DNA of 36,889 nt from Armatimonadota bacterium (lineage in GTDB: Bacteria; Bacteroidota; Ignavibacteria; OLB7): assembly GCA_020850315.1 (NCBI GenBank), contig JADZEY010000106.1, forward strand, positions 1-36,889, written 5' to 3'. Position 1 is the stretch's first letter. Each line of letters opens with the position of its first letter. Positions 19,803 through 29,152 of the stretch are shown here, piece by piece. The translations under genes and the position numbers were made by a program. The notes under the pieces were generated by a model. It did not search any database, was not told the origin of the DNA, and saw only the letters and a program-made list of their open reading frames with translations.

Positions 19803-21482
19803 TCACATCTTCTTTGCCACCACCACCGTTGTTTGGGCAGTTACCACCCTTCCCCCCGATGCGTCGTAGGCTTCCAAGCGAACAATGTAAATCCCTTGCG
19901 GAACCAGAAACTGGTCTTCCCCCCGGCCATCCCAAAGCACCTCACTTTGTGCCGGGGATGGAACATTGTTCAGCAGCCGCACCACCGCGCGCCCAAGCCG
20001 ATCATACACCTGAAGCACAATCCGCGAAGCTGGCATCGGAAGCCGAAACGCAAGAAGTGTGAAGTCATCCCGAGAATCTCCATCCGGGGAAATCGTTTCC
20101 GGGATTGCCGACAATACTGCGTCGGATGCCAGGGTGGAGAGCGACCGTGAATTAACCTCGCCCGGCGTCCCCCCCGCCAGCGCAACCGATCCACTCCAAT
20201 TCTGTTTTTGATTCGATCCCCCCCCTGGCGAGACCCGCTCTATTGAAACGCCTCGTGTGCCATCCACATCGGGGCCCCACCAGTCGCTCCAGTAGTGAAC
20301 GCTGTCAACCGTTGCCCCGCGTGTGTTCCGCAACACCACTTGATCGGCATCCACGTTCAGGCTAAAACTCTGCTTGCCGATAATGATGACTTTGCTGGAA
20401 TCTACTTCCGGGAACGCAAGGTAGATGGTGGAGTCGGAGGCAATCACAGCGTAGCCCCCCGGGGGAACGGGTTGGGGGGTGGTGGGAAGTGTGGCCATCG
20501 GCTTTGCTGTGGCATCGAACAACCTCCATCCGGCCATGTCAATGGTGCGGTCAAGGGGGTTGAACACCTCCACATACTCGGCGGTTGTTGTGGCTTCTAT
20601 CACTTTGGGGTCGTTCATCACCTCGGTGATAACCAACCCGGTATCCAACGCCGGCAGGCGGATGATGAACTCGGCTTGGTTGTCACTGGCTTGCTCGTCC
20701 CCCTCCACTTCAATTTGCACCTGGCCGCGTTCTCCGGCCTCGGTTATCGTGCGGCTCCATTGCAATTCCACCACGCTGATTTGCCCGGGGGGAATCACGC
20801 CAAACGGGATAGCCGCAATCGCCTCCTTCCCCCCACCATCCGGCAGATAGAAGAGCGTTGCGTTGCCGCCAGCCGCCAGCGTTCCGGCGTTTCGGATGCG
20901 TGCGGCCACGGTGGAACTATCAACCACAACCAGCTCGACCGCAAGGTTCAGTTCCGGTGCGGCCAGCGAATTTTTCGCGCCTGGGGTGGCCCGGATTTGT
21001 GCGGTGCAGCCACCCCACGATTCGGCAAGTGTCGGGTTGCTGCTTGGGCTAATCCGTTCCAGCGAGACTCCATTCCCCCCACCCCATGCGGCTTGGTAGT
21101 GGAATGAGTCCACCACGTTATCCAAGGGGTTGCGCAGGGTTACGTCGTCGTCGTCGTTGTTGAATGTGGGGAGCTTCACCAGTACCATTCGGTAGCGGCC
21201 CGGGTGCGCCTGCCGAAGCGCGGCGGTATCGGCAGTGGCAACAACAAATGTTTTTGGCGGGAGCAGAGCGGTGGGGAGCAAAGGGCGGGAAGCCGTGGCA
21301 TCGTGCAGTTGCCAGCCAGCCAAGTTCACCGCGTCGGTGCCGTTGTTGAACAGCTCTATCCACTCCGGCTCGTTGGCAGCTGGGGCGTACATCACCTCGT
21401 TAATCACCACTTGCGCCGGTGCCGTCGGCGGCACCAGCAGAAGGCCAAGCAGCGGCAGCAGAATGTTTATTGATCGCAGCAT
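19803..21482 (-). CDS. Secreted protein with two lamin-tail domains and CHU_C/FlgD-like C-terminal sorting region
   Basis: A 559-residue exported protein. The signal peptide (residues 1-23, cleaved after PAQ) is followed by a lamin-tail domain (about 25-175, VVINEVMYAPAANEPEWIEL opening and WQLHDATA). A CARDB-like beta domain (about 176-285) follows, then a second lamin-tail domain (about 287-445, ITEVMNDPKV, WRLFDATA). The C-terminal about 95 residues start TISPDGDSRDDF and end with GIYIVRLEAYDASG, the pattern of FlgD-Ig/CHU_C domains associated with type IX secretion in Bacteroidota. A surface or matrix role is likely; the ligand is unknown. A G-rich stretch (GGGGGGAT) just before the ATG may act as ribosome site. 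The gene may be read through from thyX, 63 bases upstream. Confidence 0.82.
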   Translation of the reverse strand: MLRSINILLPLLGLLLVPPTAPAQVVINEVMYAPAANEPEWIELFNNGTDAVNLAGWQLHDATASRPLLPTALLPPKTFVVATADTAALRQAHPGRYRMVLVKLPTFNNDDDDVTLRNPLDNVVDSFHYQAAWGGGNGVSLERISPSSNPTLAESWGGCTAQIRATPGAKNSLAAPELNLAVELVVVDSSTVAARIRNAGTLAAGGNATLFYLPDGGGKEAIAAIPFGVIPPGQISVVELQWSRTITEAGERGQVQIEVEGDEQASDNQAEFIIRLPALDTGLVITEVMNDPKVIEATTTAEYVEVFNPLDRTIDMAGWRLFDATAKPMATLPTTPQPVPPGGYAVIASDSTIYLAFPEVDSSKVIIIGKQSFSLNVDADQVVLRNTRGATVDSVHYWSDWWGPDVDGTRGVSIERVSPGGGSNQKQNWSGSVALAGGTPGEVNSRSLSTLASDAVLSAIPETISPDGDSRDDFTLLAFRLPMPASRIVLQVYDRLGRAVVRLLNNVPSPAQSEVLWDGRGEDQFLVPQGIYIVRLEAYDASGGRVVTAQTTVVVAKKM

Positions 21483-21545: not shown

Positions 21546-22967
21546 CTATTCCGGCTCGGCGCTCCCTTCCAGAATCATCCCACGGGTTGCGGGATAGTGC
21601 TGATACCACAACTGCAACGCTTCGTGCAAGTGACGTGCGTAGCGGTAATGCGCCCCGGTTCCGGTGCGTAGCTCGGCTTCGTACAGGAACTTGTCGGCGG
21701 TAGTGGTATGCTCAAATGGATATTGTGTTCCCAACAGCGTCCAGTAGGGGTGGCTGTGTTCCCCTTTGCAAAGGAGTTCGTAGGCTCTGCGGGTTGCATG
21801 TTTCCCAATCTGCTCCAGCCTGCCAAGTTGCTTGTGCTGGTCGGAATCGCGCATCTGGGCTGGCCACTGATCCAGCGCGGCATAAAATCCGACGGGGCGA
21901 AGCGGGACTGATTTGGTTCCGGTGCGGTGGCGGTTCAGGTCGCGAATTTCCCCCATTGCCATTGCTTCCCACCAGAACCGCACGGCAACCCGTTTCAGCC
22001 GTTCGCCAACAAAGGAGTAGCGGTTATCGTGGTCGGCAAGGTCCTCCATCACCATTGCTTCATCAACATCTGGCGGGGGCATCACCGCAAGATGGGCGGT
22101 TGGTGGGTGCTCGGCCACTGGTGAACCCTCCAGAAGGTAGGGGGATTCTGCAGCAATCGCATCCCGCTGCAGCTGCGCAAACTCACGGCGAATGCCGTGC
22201 AGAAAGGATGGTTTTTCCGTGGCGTGGCGAAGCATTCGGGGGGCGGCAAGTTCCAATTCTTGGCGGATCAATTCCCCCAGCCGAACAGCCTCCGGCAGCG
22301 GGTGGGAAAGAAGCGACTGGCAAAGCGTCACCCATCCCCGTGCCGAAAGTATCAGCATCATGTTGGTGGTGGCGGCCACCGGAAGGAAGTAGCGGGCGCG
22401 GTCGAACGCATAGTTGCGTTGCATTCGTGCCACCGTTTTTTGGGCTTTTGCCGAGCTGTCCTCCAGAAGCGAGCGGGGGATGCGGGTGACATCCGGAATT
22501 GCAGCCGCCACCGACTCCCACAACGCCACCGCGTCAATGTACGATTGGAAGCTGTCGGCCATCAGGTTCCGCCATTCATCGGCATTGTTGTCGGGGATTC
22601 CGAAGGCGGCTGCCGACGGCAGCGAGTCGGCGGTTAATCGGATGTAGCGTGTGCTGGATTCCTGCCCCCCTGCGGTCGGGACCAACGTCCAGACGTAGTA
22701 GGCAAGGTGGATGGAAAGCTCATCAATAAACATGGCCACCGGAGCCATATCGGCAATGGACTGGTGGCCATAATCAATCATCTTGAAAATGCCGTCAACC
22801 GACTTATCAAGGTTGTTCGGATCAATCTTACTTAAAATTGCTTGCAGCCCATCGTTGCTGCGGGAATAGCGCGCACCGCTGGCGGCCAATAATTCAGGGG
22901 TGAGTGCTGGGCGATTCGCAGCATTGGATGCTTCGGTTGGACGGAGAGCAACTTGGGTTACGGTCAT
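21546..22967 (-). CDS. thyX: Double-length flavin-dependent thymidylate synthase (ThyX superfamily)
   Basis: Predicted to convert dUMP to dTMP with FAD and methylene-tetrahydrofolate. At 473 residues it is about twice the normal ThyX length and contains two ThyX-like halves. The N-terminal half has YGHQSIADMA (about 66-75), GGQESSTRYIRL (Glu103, Ser105, Arg107, Tyr108, matching the ExSxRY end of the ThyX motif) and RARYFLPVAATTNMM (about 190-204). The C-terminal half has IRDLNRHRTGTKSVPLR (RHR at 346-348, matching the start of the motif) and a closing helix region near YPFEHTTTADKFLYEAELRTG. Each half thus lacks what the other retains. ATG 22967 is used; the TTG upstream lies in heptamer-like sequence. 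No thyA is seen here. The two-domain arrangement occurs in other phyla; whether it is active cannot be shown from sequence. Confidence 0.82.
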   Translation of the reverse strand: MTVTQVALRPTEASNAANRPALTPELLAASGARYSRSNDGLQAILSKIDPNNLDKSVDGIFKMIDYGHQSIADMAPVAMFIDELSIHLAYYVWTLVPTAGGQESSTRYIRLTADSLPSAAAFGIPDNNADEWRNLMADSFQSYIDAVALWESVAAAIPDVTRIPRSLLEDSSAKAQKTVARMQRNYAFDRARYFLPVAATTNMMLILSARGWVTLCQSLLSHPLPEAVRLGELIRQELELAAPRMLRHATEKPSFLHGIRREFAQLQRDAIAAESPYLLEGSPVAEHPPTAHLAVMPPPDVDEAMVMEDLADHDNRYSFVGERLKRVAVRFWWEAMAMGEIRDLNRHRTGTKSVPLRPVGFYAALDQWPAQMRDSDQHKQLGRLEQIGKHATRRAYELLCKGEHSHPYWTLLGTQYPFEHTTTADKFLYEAELRTGTGAHYRYARHLHEALQLWYQHYPATRGMILEGSAEPE

Positions 22968-23061
22968 CAATCGGCGATTGGTAGTTGGTGATTGGCTTGG
23001 GAACAACTATCGGCAGAAGCATGGGGGCGCAGCCCCAATGATCTTGCGCCGTGGCGTTGTG

Positions 23062-25873: not shown

Positions 25874-25902
25874 CTACCTTGTCACTGCGCCACAGATTTC
25901 GG

Positions 25903-27951
25903 ATGGATGCACGCCGCTGGGGGCTGATCTTGGCGGCTGCGGTGGGGGTTGCGATCTTCTCGCAATACTCCCAGGATCTGCCACAGTTCGACGTGGTCGA
26001 GGTGGCAATGAACGACCAGAATTTCACCGATCTGGTGCTGCAAACACGGGGTGAGCTTCCAATTGACACCAACATCCGCGTGCTTACCTACAGCCGCTCG
26101 CTGTTCGACAGCAGCGACCGCGTGGATCGCGCTATGCTTGCCACCCAACTTGCCGCGCTGTTGGATCTGAAGCCCCGTGTGGTGGCTGTTGATTTTCTGC
26201 TGGAAGACGAACGTCCCGAATCCCCCGACGGCGATGCAATGCTTGCCGCATTGATTGAGGCACACCCCAATTTGATCTTCGGCATCTTCTACGAGGATAG
26301 CCTGAAACGATTCCGCCTCCCCCCTTCCGCGTTCAAACTTACCGGCGCGCAGCTTGGCTGCATCAACCTTCAGCCCGACGACGACAAAACCATCCGCACC
26401 TACACCGTGCTGTGGGGCGAACCCGATTCCGTGAAATTTGAATCGTTCGACGTGAAAATTGCCCGCGCCGTGGATAGCAACGCCGCAGCAGTGGCCACCT
26501 CCTTCTCGCAAAAAACGTTTGTGATTGATTACGCCGGTGGAATCGGCGAGGAATCCGAAACCGACAACGCAATCGGGAAGCAGATATTCCCCACGCTTCC
26601 GCTCGAGGCGGTGTTTGCCGCAGCAATGTCGGGCGATAGCGGCGCGGTGGAAGCGTTCCGTTCGCAGCTTGCGGGGAAGGCGGTGATGGTGGGCTATGCC
26701 GACATCCGCAACTCCCAAATCACCTCCGTTGTTGACCGCTTTTTCACCCCGCTGAAAAATGGGAAGAACGCGCTTCCCGATATGCACGGCGTGGCTATCC
26801 ATGCCAACGTTGTCAACACCATTTTGCAAGGCAGAGTTGTGGAAGTAGTGGCTCCATACGTGAACATCCTTGTGGGGATTGGGATGGCGGTCCTGTTCCT
26901 GCTGCTGCGTTCCCGAATCGGCAGCCTGCGCCGCCCAACCTTGCGGACCATCAGCCAGTACTCACTTTTCTTTCTGTTCCTGTTTTTGGCAATCCTGCTT
27001 CCGGTGATTGCCTTCCGCTACACTACCTACAAGTTCTCCATCTACACCCCGTTTACTGCGGTGCTGCTGGCAATCCCAGCGTTTGAGTTACTGCAAAAAA
27101 TCCTGGAGTTAAGCCGCGACATCAACCGCCGCCGCCGTGCAAAAAAAATCCGGTTGGGGTGGCTGCGCGAGCAAATCTTCGACATTCTTCAGGCCGGCCC
27201 GGTGGAGCAGCAGTACATGCAGGCGTTGCACTTCCTTCGGTTGCAGTTTCATCTTGCGTGCGCCGCGCTGTTCCACGAATCGGTGGAGCGCGGAACCATC
27301 AGCTTCCCCAGCCTGACGATTGCTTCCCCAACGCCGCAGCGGATGTTTGCCGGGGCGCGTTCGCAACAAGAACAGTTGAACCTTGCCGGAAGCGATGCCC
27401 GACATGGCGCGGCAATTATTGAGATGATGGCACACTACCCGCACATCGTCCAGGAGCTTCGGCTTTCGCGCTCATTCTACATTGCCCTGAACGAAGTCCG
27501 CCGGCAAACCGCCGTTAGCATCGCAGCAGAAGAATCGGCAGCAACGGCGGCGCATCCAACCGGCGAGGAGACCTCGGCCGCCGATTACATTGACCTTGCG
27601 CTGACTGCCTTAACCGGAGAAGGGGGAAGCCGCAAGAACTTCGACGTGCTGTATGCCGAGATTGAACGGTTTGTGACCCAAGCCGAAGCCACATTGATGG
27701 AGGAGGCTCGCGACTATCAATCGCTGTTGGAGCATGGTCCCATCTTCTACCCGTACACCATCAGCTGCCGCTGCCGTTTGCACCAAACGGATGAACTGTT
27801 CATCTACTTCAACGAGCAAGAGGACACCAACGAGCGGGACGATTTTTTTGATTTGGTGTATGGTGGCCGCACCATTCGTTGCCAGCCGGAACGCCATCCC
27901 GGGCTGACCGAGGTGCGCAACTACCGTCTGCGGCTTCGGTCGGCTGAGTGA
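25903..27951 (+). CDS. CHASE2-domain membrane sensor with unrecognised cytoplasmic output
   Basis: A 682-residue membrane protein. After an N-terminal helix (about 6-23) comes an extracytoplasmic CHASE2 domain (about 30-310): VVAVDFLLEDERPES, a conserved stretch ending in the AGKAVMVGYAD region, and LPDMHGVAIHANVVNTIL near the end. Three helices (about 318-336, 350-371, 377-398) lead into a basic segment RRRRAKKIRL. CHASE2 normally senses an unknown signal for a cyclase, kinase or GGDEF domain, but the remaining about 280 residues show none of these. They contain mainly helices, then a terminal part with CRCRLHQTDELFIYF. ATG 25903 is preferred over a TTG at 25879, which lies within a TACCTTGT box that may be the promoter. 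It ends one base from the convergent mcrC gene. Confidence 0.72.
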   Translation: MDARRWGLILAAAVGVAIFSQYSQDLPQFDVVEVAMNDQNFTDLVLQTRGELPIDTNIRVLTYSRSLFDSSDRVDRAMLATQLAALLDLKPRVVAVDFLLEDERPESPDGDAMLAALIEAHPNLIFGIFYEDSLKRFRLPPSAFKLTGAQLGCINLQPDDDKTIRTYTVLWGEPDSVKFESFDVKIARAVDSNAAAVATSFSQKTFVIDYAGGIGEESETDNAIGKQIFPTLPLEAVFAAAMSGDSGAVEAFRSQLAGKAVMVGYADIRNSQITSVVDRFFTPLKNGKNALPDMHGVAIHANVVNTILQGRVVEVVAPYVNILVGIGMAVLFLLLRSRIGSLRRPTLRTISQYSLFFLFLFLAILLPVIAFRYTTYKFSIYTPFTAVLLAIPAFELLQKILELSRDINRRRRAKKIRLGWLREQIFDILQAGPVEQQYMQALHFLRLQFHLACAALFHESVERGTISFPSLTIASPTPQRMFAGARSQQEQLNLAGSDARHGAAIIEMMAHYPHIVQELRLSRSFYIALNEVRRQTAVSIAAEESAATAAHPTGEETSAADYIDLALTALTGEGGSRKNFDVLYAEIERFVTQAEATLMEEARDYQSLLEHGPIFYPYTISCRCRLHQTDELFIYFNEQEDTNERDDFFDLVYGGRTIRCQPERHPGLTEVRNYRLRLRSAE

Positions 27952-27952
27952 T

Positions 27953-29152
27953 TCACGCAGGCGATTCGCTAAGCAGCAGAAGCAACTCCTCCAGCATCCT
28001 TCTTCCCCCCTTCTCAATATCCGTTGCGATATCGAACGCCACGGTTCGGATAGCGATTTCACTTTGGCCATATCGCCCATTGAACGGGCGGCGTAGCTGG
28101 GTTGGATAGATCAGCACCGCGCTGGCGCAACCACGCGCAACGGAGTAGGCAACAACCTGCTGAAGGTCATCAGGGGAAGGGGAATCGGCGGTTTTATACT
28201 TGGTGTCAATCACCAACAACGGGCGATTGCTTGCGGCATTGTAGATCACCATGTCCAACGTTATCGGGAACGCTCCGGCAGCATCCACCGCCACACGCTC
28301 CTGCGCAACCAAGCGATACTCAGCCGGCAGATGCGCCAACAACCACTGAGCAACGAACAGTTCAAACAACCGCCCCATGTTCACCAAAAACGGGATCATG
28401 GTGCGGTCGCCAAGCTGGTGGGTTGGGCCGGAGTGCTCCAAGAAAAAACGGCAGAGCGCGTGCAGAAGTTGATAATCTTGATTGATCCGGGTGTAGTGGC
28501 GGTTGATGCAATCGCTTGGCTGGCATGGCATTGGGGTTGCCGCCCCCGCAAACCGATGCAACGCCGTGCGGATTAATCCGGAAGCATCCCTGCTCAAACG
28601 ATGCCGCGCCAACATCTGCAGAGTGAAGGCGATAATCTGGTTATCCTTGCAATCGGTTGTCCGTTCTTGGAACCGTGAGGTTGGCGGGTGGCGGTGCGGG
28701 GCGCGCCAGTTTTCCGGAAGGTCAATCCGCCCCCGAACAACAGGTGATTGCTGGGTGTGTGCCAGATATGGGCGGTGCAAGCCAATCCGCGCTCTGTCCA
28801 GCACCCGTTTTGCGAAGATGATTGCAAGCTGCTGGAACATCTCATCAATCGCACCAAACGCCGCCACACCATCCAACAGATGAAAGCTGTTCAGCCGATA
28901 CGCATACTCCAACATCCCGAAGATATTGGCCACCGGCGTTTTGGGTTGCAACATCACCCGCAGCTCGGCATCAACAACAATGCCCCCCACCCACCCTTGC
29001 GACTTCAGCACCCATTGGTTGTTGGTGGTTAGCGATGGCCCCATCACCGCCACATAGTTGCCGTAGCGTTGCCACAGCGTAGCCCCCTGGCCGCTGGTTA
29101 TCTGCTGGCAAGCAAGCCGGGTTTCTTCATGCTCATGGACGGTGATGGTCAT
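27953..29152 (-). CDS. McrC-family nuclease subunit, without McrB
   Basis: A 399-residue member of the McrC family, the PD-(D/E)XK nuclease partner of the McrB GTPase in 5-methylcytosine restriction. Visible features are the family-typical N-terminal beta region (GWVGGIVVDAELRVMLQPK), NIFGMLEYAY, the RGRIDLPENW segment and TTDCKDNQIIAFTL. The catalytic block TLDMVIYN ... LLVIDTKYK supplies the acidic residue and the D-x-K pair. No McrB-like AAA+ gene occurs anywhere in the window. The gene upstream in the same direction, 48 bases away, encodes a metallo-hydrolase. Either the GTPase is elsewhere or this is a free-standing nuclease with another role. It is codon-balanced like its neighbours, without obvious foreign composition. 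Confidence 0.75.
   Translation of the reverse strand: MTITVHEHEETRLACQQITSGQGATLWQRYGNYVAVMGPSLTTNNQWVLKSQGWVGGIVVDAELRVMLQPKTPVANIFGMLEYAYRLNSFHLLDGVAAFGAIDEMFQQLAIIFAKRVLDRARIGLHRPYLAHTQQSPVVRGRIDLPENWRAPHRHPPTSRFQERTTDCKDNQIIAFTLQMLARHRLSRDASGLIRTALHRFAGAATPMPCQPSDCINRHYTRINQDYQLLHALCRFFLEHSGPTHQLGDRTMIPFLVNMGRLFELFVAQWLLAHLPAEYRLVAQERVAVDAAGAFPITLDMVIYNAASNRPLLVIDTKYKTADSPSPDDLQQVVAYSVARGCASAVLIYPTQLRRPFNGRYGQSEIAIRTVAFDIATDIEKGGRRMLEELLLLLSESPA

Follow-up and report, generated by a model that had tools for sequence, protein, structure and literature searches.

Flavin-dependent thymidylate synthases (ThyX or FDTS, PF02511), such as TM0449 of T. maritima (Tm) and ThyX of M. tuberculosis (Mtb), are homotetramers with four active sites that are shared between subunits. 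In the canonical site, the RHR triad and Arg199 are provided by one subunit, Ser71 and Arg190 by a second and Ser105, Arg107 and Tyr108, along with the dUMP contact Arg87, by a third (PMC6514825). Arg199 of the Mtb enzyme, equivalent to Arg174 of the Tm enzyme, is the arginine that polarises dUMP (PMC6514825, PMC8316439), and the catalytic roles of Tm residues S88, R90, Y91 and R174 have been published (PMC8316439, PMC11940539).

Longer relatives of these enzymes have been described. Most Chloroflexi encode a duplicated ThyX, termed uncharacterised, that is the only thymidylate synthase of the group outside Dehalococcoides (Valas and Bourne 2009, PMC3224940). It shares the domain duplication with the protein presented here, but the retrieved passages of that paper neither analyse the motif nor offer a mechanism. 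Microcystis phage Ma-LMM01 and its relatives encode a thymidylate synthase (phrog_36506) that is a full-length double protein of 491 aa, its motif being split as described below, although it shows only about 25% identity over 52% of our protein and appears to carry Glu at the position of R210. Thy1 of T. thermophilus (PDB 6j61) likewise has extra C-terminal sequence and its ThyX domain matches structurally (Z 12.0), but the extra part is, by the title of the entry, a C-terminal domain and is not called a second ThyX. In the open-licence literature we found neither a paper on 6j61 nor an account of a split ThyX site. Duplicated ThyX is therefore already known, whereas the split site is new among open-licence papers; a ThyX-like function is what we would expect of the protein.

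The gene considered here is located on the minus strand of a 36,889-nt stretch of DNA, referred to as the window. The open reading frame spans 21546-23006 (486 codons) and opens at TTG. The start was placed at the ATG at 22967 because homologues begin there, which yields 473 aa and agrees with the gene limits of the initial annotation. The gene and its two halves are:

21546-22967, minus strand: double ThyX gene of type 1 (types are defined below), 473 aa; open reading frame, homologue starts, Thy1 match, dN/dS 0.09
22182-22967, minus strand: N half, residues 1-262, ThyX domain with ExSxRY, GHxS and R210; Pfam Thy1 and AlphaFold2 model
21555-22115, minus strand: C half, residues 285-471, ThyX fold with RHR and R434; VIA-align Z 10.6-12.6

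The N half was assigned to ThyX by a Pfam profile and the C half by structure comparison. Thy1 gave a single match, confined to the N half (45.1 bits for a cut-off of 24.8, residues 37-256 of the 486-aa open reading frame), and the NCBIfam ThyX equivalog (TIGR02170) was missed (28.2 bits for a cut-off of 87.9). None of the Pfam and NCBIfam profiles used matched the C half, and hhalign comparison of the C-half family with canonical ThyX was not significant. A single-chain AlphaFold2 model was built from 19 sequences (mean pLDDT 85, pTM 0.85). With an input of 8 sequences the core of the N half was unfolded, and it folded when homologues from giant phages were added; the GHQS loop (residues 61-74) is of low confidence in the model. 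The modelled C half (residues about 279-472) aligned with many solved ThyX chains at the Z-scores listed above, while the next unrelated chain reached only 4.3. The C half is thus a ThyX domain by fold rather than by sequence, and the protein is a tandem of two ThyX domains. Its 473 aa place it among double-domain ThyX proteins, taken as single chains of about 450-550 aa that contain a pair of ThyX domains; no solved structure of any of these was found by sequence search. Purifying selection acts on both halves, as dN/dS between the window gene and a 92%-identical relative is 0.094 over the whole gene (N half 0.096, C half 0.090).

The initial annotation had noticed that the signature motif RHRxxSxNExSxRY, continuous in canonical ThyX, is divided between the two halves. 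This holds: the continuous motif is found in neither of them. At the corresponding place the N half reads LVPTAGGQESSTRY, with E103, S105, R107 and Y108 present and RHR absent, and the C half reads RHRTGTKSVPLRPV, with RHR present and ExSxRY absent, its positions being filled by V354, L356, P358 and V359.

22677-22685, minus strand: L95-V96-P97 in the canonical RHR position, loss in the N half (alignment)
22644-22661, minus strand: ESSTRY, residues 103-108, the retained ExSxRY end on the dUMP/catalytic side; in 19/19 type-1 rows, and in 73/73 double proteins as [E/Q]xSxR[Y/F]
21924-21932, minus strand: R346-H347-R348, the retained RHR end; in 18/18 type-1 rows, RHR in 73/73 double proteins
21891-21908, minus strand: VPLRPV, residues 354-359, in place of ExSxRY, loss in the C half (alignment)

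The four retained residues of the N half are invariant in the 19 rows of the type-1 alignment and the three of the C half in the 18 rows where they are present. No row of this alignment regains a lost residue, including E, S, R or Y at 354, 356, 358 and 359. The protein was set apart from the canonical family because the continuous motif and the equivalog score both failed.

Residues that contact the ligands outside the motif were matched by alignment to TM0449 and Mtb ThyX, using the NxR...LR spacing and the distance from RHR:

22758-22769, minus strand: GHQS, residues 67-70, S70 being Mtb Ser71, a second-subunit FAD contact (PMC6514825); G, H and S invariant in 19 rows
22338-22340, minus strand: R210, equivalent to Mtb Arg190, a second-subunit FAD contact; R in 18/18 type-1 rows
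22311-22313, minus strand: L219 at the position of Mtb Arg199/Tm Arg174, loss in the N half; L in 18/18
21693-21695, minus strand: D425 at the position of Mtb Arg190, loss in the type-1 C half; D in 15/17, while type 2 has Arg (NLRE)
21666-21668, minus strand: R434, equivalent to Mtb Arg199/Tm Arg174; R in 17/17, role from PMC6514825 and PMC8316439

The C-half position matching S70 is mostly glycine in the type-1 alignment. The C half of the window protein consequently holds the first-subunit set only (RHR and R434) and the N half the second- and third-subunit sets only, and in the type-1 alignment the retained contact residues never exchange halves. By alignment, segregation thus appears to go beyond the motif in type 1, with S70, R210 and R434 each in one half only. 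The composite site shared by the two halves, as proposed in the initial annotation, gains support here since the retained residues fit the published contacts (PMC6514825). S70 and R434 lie outside the motif, and their segregation is an independent prediction of the composite-site idea that came out right. For the published dUMP contact Mtb Arg87, no clear counterpart was seen in the window protein.

The reciprocal loss is wider than the initial annotation claimed. The alignment check that it had suggested was run and came out positive: all 73 double ThyX proteins inspected (58 + 15, from three families in bacteria and phages) have [E/Q]xSxR[Y/F] without RHR in the N half, and RHR without a following ExSxRY in the C half. 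Only the two motif ends were scored in all 73, and the residues outside the motif were compared column by column in type 1 only. Type 1 (ESSTRY/RDLNRHRTG) occurs in two genera of the window's family, in Verrucomicrobiota, Kiritimatiellae and Armatimonadota. Type 2 (EKSTRY/RDxQRHR) occurs in Armatimonadota and in one family of the window's phylum, and is likely the counterpart of the duplicated ThyX of Chloroflexi. Type 3 (SEQVSQRY/DQRHRM) is found in the window's phylum, including genome G297 of the window's own family, and in Verrucomicrobiota.

Within these families some positions vary. In type 3 the Glu position is occupied by Gln (QVSQRY), and one row of family 2 has RF instead of RY. In type 2, one Arg of RHR survives in the N half, and the C half has an Arg at its R190 position. 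Judging from the alignments, type 3 seems to have no arginine at the R210 position in either half, and the proteins of phages BONAISHI and Ma-LMM01 also seem to lack R210. Since R210 is not universal across the double proteins, the partition of the second-subunit role is looser than that of the motif.

Type 1 is encoded on giant-phage contigs of up to 479 kb, and related doubles are encoded by Microcystis phages and by Vibrio phage BONAISHI. The type-1 doubles of giant-phage and other viral contigs (L096-L102, L107, L111, L115 and L116) are about 37-52% identical to the window protein, and those of L096 and L097 have about 40 residues inserted after residue 52. A type-2 query found no match among viral contigs, an Mvi-JY20 query found no match, and no plasmid homologue was found. 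Two other unusual architectures were encountered. ThyX-like proteins of 305-323 aa in Verrucomicrobiota (L117-L120) look circularly permuted: an RHR-like MTHRLFSRNASSSRA and HPDAQPEIQELA come first and the normally N-terminal part (RCARVSYLNHDG ... LHASPMEHQ) comes last. In two genomes of the window's phylum (G090:C2:38316-39926 and G157:C142:27539-29146), the ThyX match is broken into two segments of a single 582-595-aa reading frame, pointing to an intein or another insertion in the middle of the domain.

From these residue patterns we consider it quite probable that the protein acts as a flavin-dependent thymidylate synthase in which two fused and diverged ThyX domains divide the labour, working as a predicted two-chain pseudo-tetramer. 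It would carry out the ThyX reaction, the conversion of dUMP to dTMP with CH2-folate, FAD and NAD(P)H. The C half would supply RHR, binding FAD and dUMP, and the dUMP-polarising R434. The N half would supply S70 and R210 to the same FAD, as well as E103, S105, R107 and Y108 for dUMP binding and acid chemistry. Two chains would form the pseudo-tetramer with their two C halves diagonal to each other. One active site would then combine RHR and R434 of one C half, S70 and R210 of one N half and S105, R107 and Y108 of the other N half. Its symmetry mate would be complete too, and the two remaining pockets would contain none of these residues. There would thus be two active sites per four domains rather than the four of the canonical tetramer, and the separate halves would not be functional.

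The geometry was reasoned on a D2 tetramer whose sites are formed by subunits (A;B,C), (B;A,D), (C;D,A) and (D;C,B). If the C halves occupy A and D and the N halves occupy B and C, two sites should be complete and two empty; if the C halves instead occupy A and B, or A and C, no site should be complete. Only the diagonal placement gives complete sites, so that the conserved residue pattern would select a single arrangement. Whether ESSTRY is donated by the same or by the partner chain would depend on the neighbour to which each half is linked. A thymidylate synthase whose sites are built otherwise, for instance by folding of the fused monomer as a closed pseudo-dimer that has one site in cis and forms no tetramer, or by a C half that binds FAD anew, would agree with R210 and the second-subunit role being incompletely partitioned in the two phage proteins as well as in types 2 and 3, and a tetramer is not itself seen in the single-chain model (pTM 0.85). 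The type-1 residues, including R434 and S70 outside the motif, nevertheless fit the canonical three-subunit site, and we regard such other assemblies as improbable.

The origin of the split was addressed by profile comparison and phylogeny. The program hhalign joins N halves with one another (N1-N2 E-value 3.6e-27, N2-N3 1.7e-9, N1-N3 1e-5), and likewise C halves with one another (C2-C3 1e-10, C1-C2 only 5e-4), rather than the N and C half within a single protein (N1-C1 0.5, N2-C2 2e-4, N3-C3 0.013). In a maximum-likelihood tree computed without the motif columns, which has long branches, a clade of N1 and C1 was rejected (p-AU 0.009), ruling out a recent duplication restricted to type 1. Neither an all-N clade (p-AU 0.44) nor an all-C clade (p-AU 0.51) was rejected, given the long branches. 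A hand-anchored block comparison of the halves was set aside, as the anchor of type 3 was doubtful and most single-domain sequences were dropped.

A single ancient duplication, followed by loss in one polarity, is the simplest reading of these profiles and trees, and the long branches leave room for separate fusions with an identical polarity of loss. The split is probably older than the divergence of the sampled families and has been maintained since. A more far-reaching scenario derives all doubles from one ancient fusion, in which a shared multi-subunit site was subfunctionalised and an obligate pseudo-heterotetramer arose that has two complete sites and two permanently dead ones, the dead pockets being kept for regulation or assembly, and sees in the extra copy of some Armatimonadota, within a CARF/ORC-like and possibly defensive cassette, a means of altering thymidylate supply; taken as a whole, it is rather unlikely.

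The genomic context bears on whether the protein is active. In the window genome, which is 99.84% complete, the double ThyX gene itself is the single Thy1 match of a Pfam search. A second ThyX or a ThyA, either of which would have spoken against the initial annotation, was looked for in the same search; no other ThyX, no ThyA, no DHFR and no thymidine kinase were found. The double ThyX is therefore very probably the thymidylate synthase of the window bacterium and its only known route to dTMP, as canonical ThyX is the sole dTMP source of genomes without ThyA and DHFR, and it resembles this enzyme in fold, in RHR, in the R174/R199 arginine, in GHxS and in the S-x-R-Y residues. Within the window's family, genomes G296 and G298 carry the same gene and G297 has the type-3 double instead, while G128 is devoid of any ThyX and has ThyA with an adjacent DHFR. 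Among sampled Armatimonadota, a ThyA match was found in 0/15 genomes with the type-1 gene versus 66/186 of the others (Fisher p 0.003, species not being independent), many of these matches being weak (at most 61 bits, in the central region) so that they may not all be true ThyA. Canonical ThyX is also absent from 14 of the 15.

These data weigh on two further readings. The protein could be a ThyX relative devoid of thymidylate synthase activity, either a pseudoenzyme or a regulator binding FAD or nucleotides, and the split a sign of decay. The complete motif is indeed in neither half, and in genomes G335 and G337 canonical ThyX is present too, the double gene there adjoining genes for a CARF6 protein and for an ORC-CDC6-like ATPase. 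Decay, however, would keep complementary residues in 73 proteins no more than it would give a dN/dS of 0.09 in both halves, and a Pfam search of the window genome turned up neither a second ThyX nor ThyA nor thymidine kinase. The sole-candidate status, the distribution of ThyA and the dN/dS together make an active thymidylate synthase appear much likelier than a pseudoenzyme, which we hold to be very improbable. Alternatively, the double ThyX could methylate another uracil nucleotide (UMP/dUMP) in the manner of PolB, thymidylate coming from elsewhere. PolB (4p5a/4p5b) is among the structural matches (Z 10.8), and phages may use enzymes of the ThyX family for modified pyrimidines (PMC7824862). 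Against this stand the lack of any alternative thymidylate source found in the window genome, the replacement of ThyA and DHFR by the gene within the window's family and the absence of nucleoside-antibiotic genes among the neighbours scanned; hardly any weight is left for a PolB-like activity.

If the protein is the predicted synthase, four shared sites of a homotetramer have become two in a fused enzyme, apparently by complementary loss, and the residues lost are those that mutagenesis showed to be important for activity. The division of labour among duplicated subunits with a shared site becomes testable in one small protein, as each half predicts its own residue set and its own dead mutant. 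Annotation by profiles detects half of the enzyme and scores it under the equivalog cut-off, so that genomes dependent on this enzyme may be miscalled thymidylate-auxotrophic.

Several observations concern neighbouring genes. In three Armatimonadota loci (L006 4364-7170, L008 4404-7306 and L071 549-1520), the type-1 double adjoins a protein of the CARF6 family (PADLOC PDLC01917, E-values 1e-61 to 1e-36). An ORC-CDC6-like ATPase (PF24389) is also near the gene in L006 and L008, and the genome of L071 (G486) has a second type-1 copy. It is possible that the CARF6/ORC loci are defence or mobile cassettes carrying a spare thymidylate synthase. In the window itself, a McrC-like protein is encoded at 27953-29152 on the minus strand (Pfam McrBC, E-value 9e-35), with no McrB recognised among the neighbours scanned, and is adjoined by a CHASE2-domain protein of 690 aa (25879-27951, plus strand). 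Directly downstream of the ThyX gene and on the same strand (19803-21482, minus), a protein with lamin-tail (LTD) domains and an FlgD/CHU_C-like C-terminal region is encoded, and a similar protein likewise follows the ThyX gene in locus L002.
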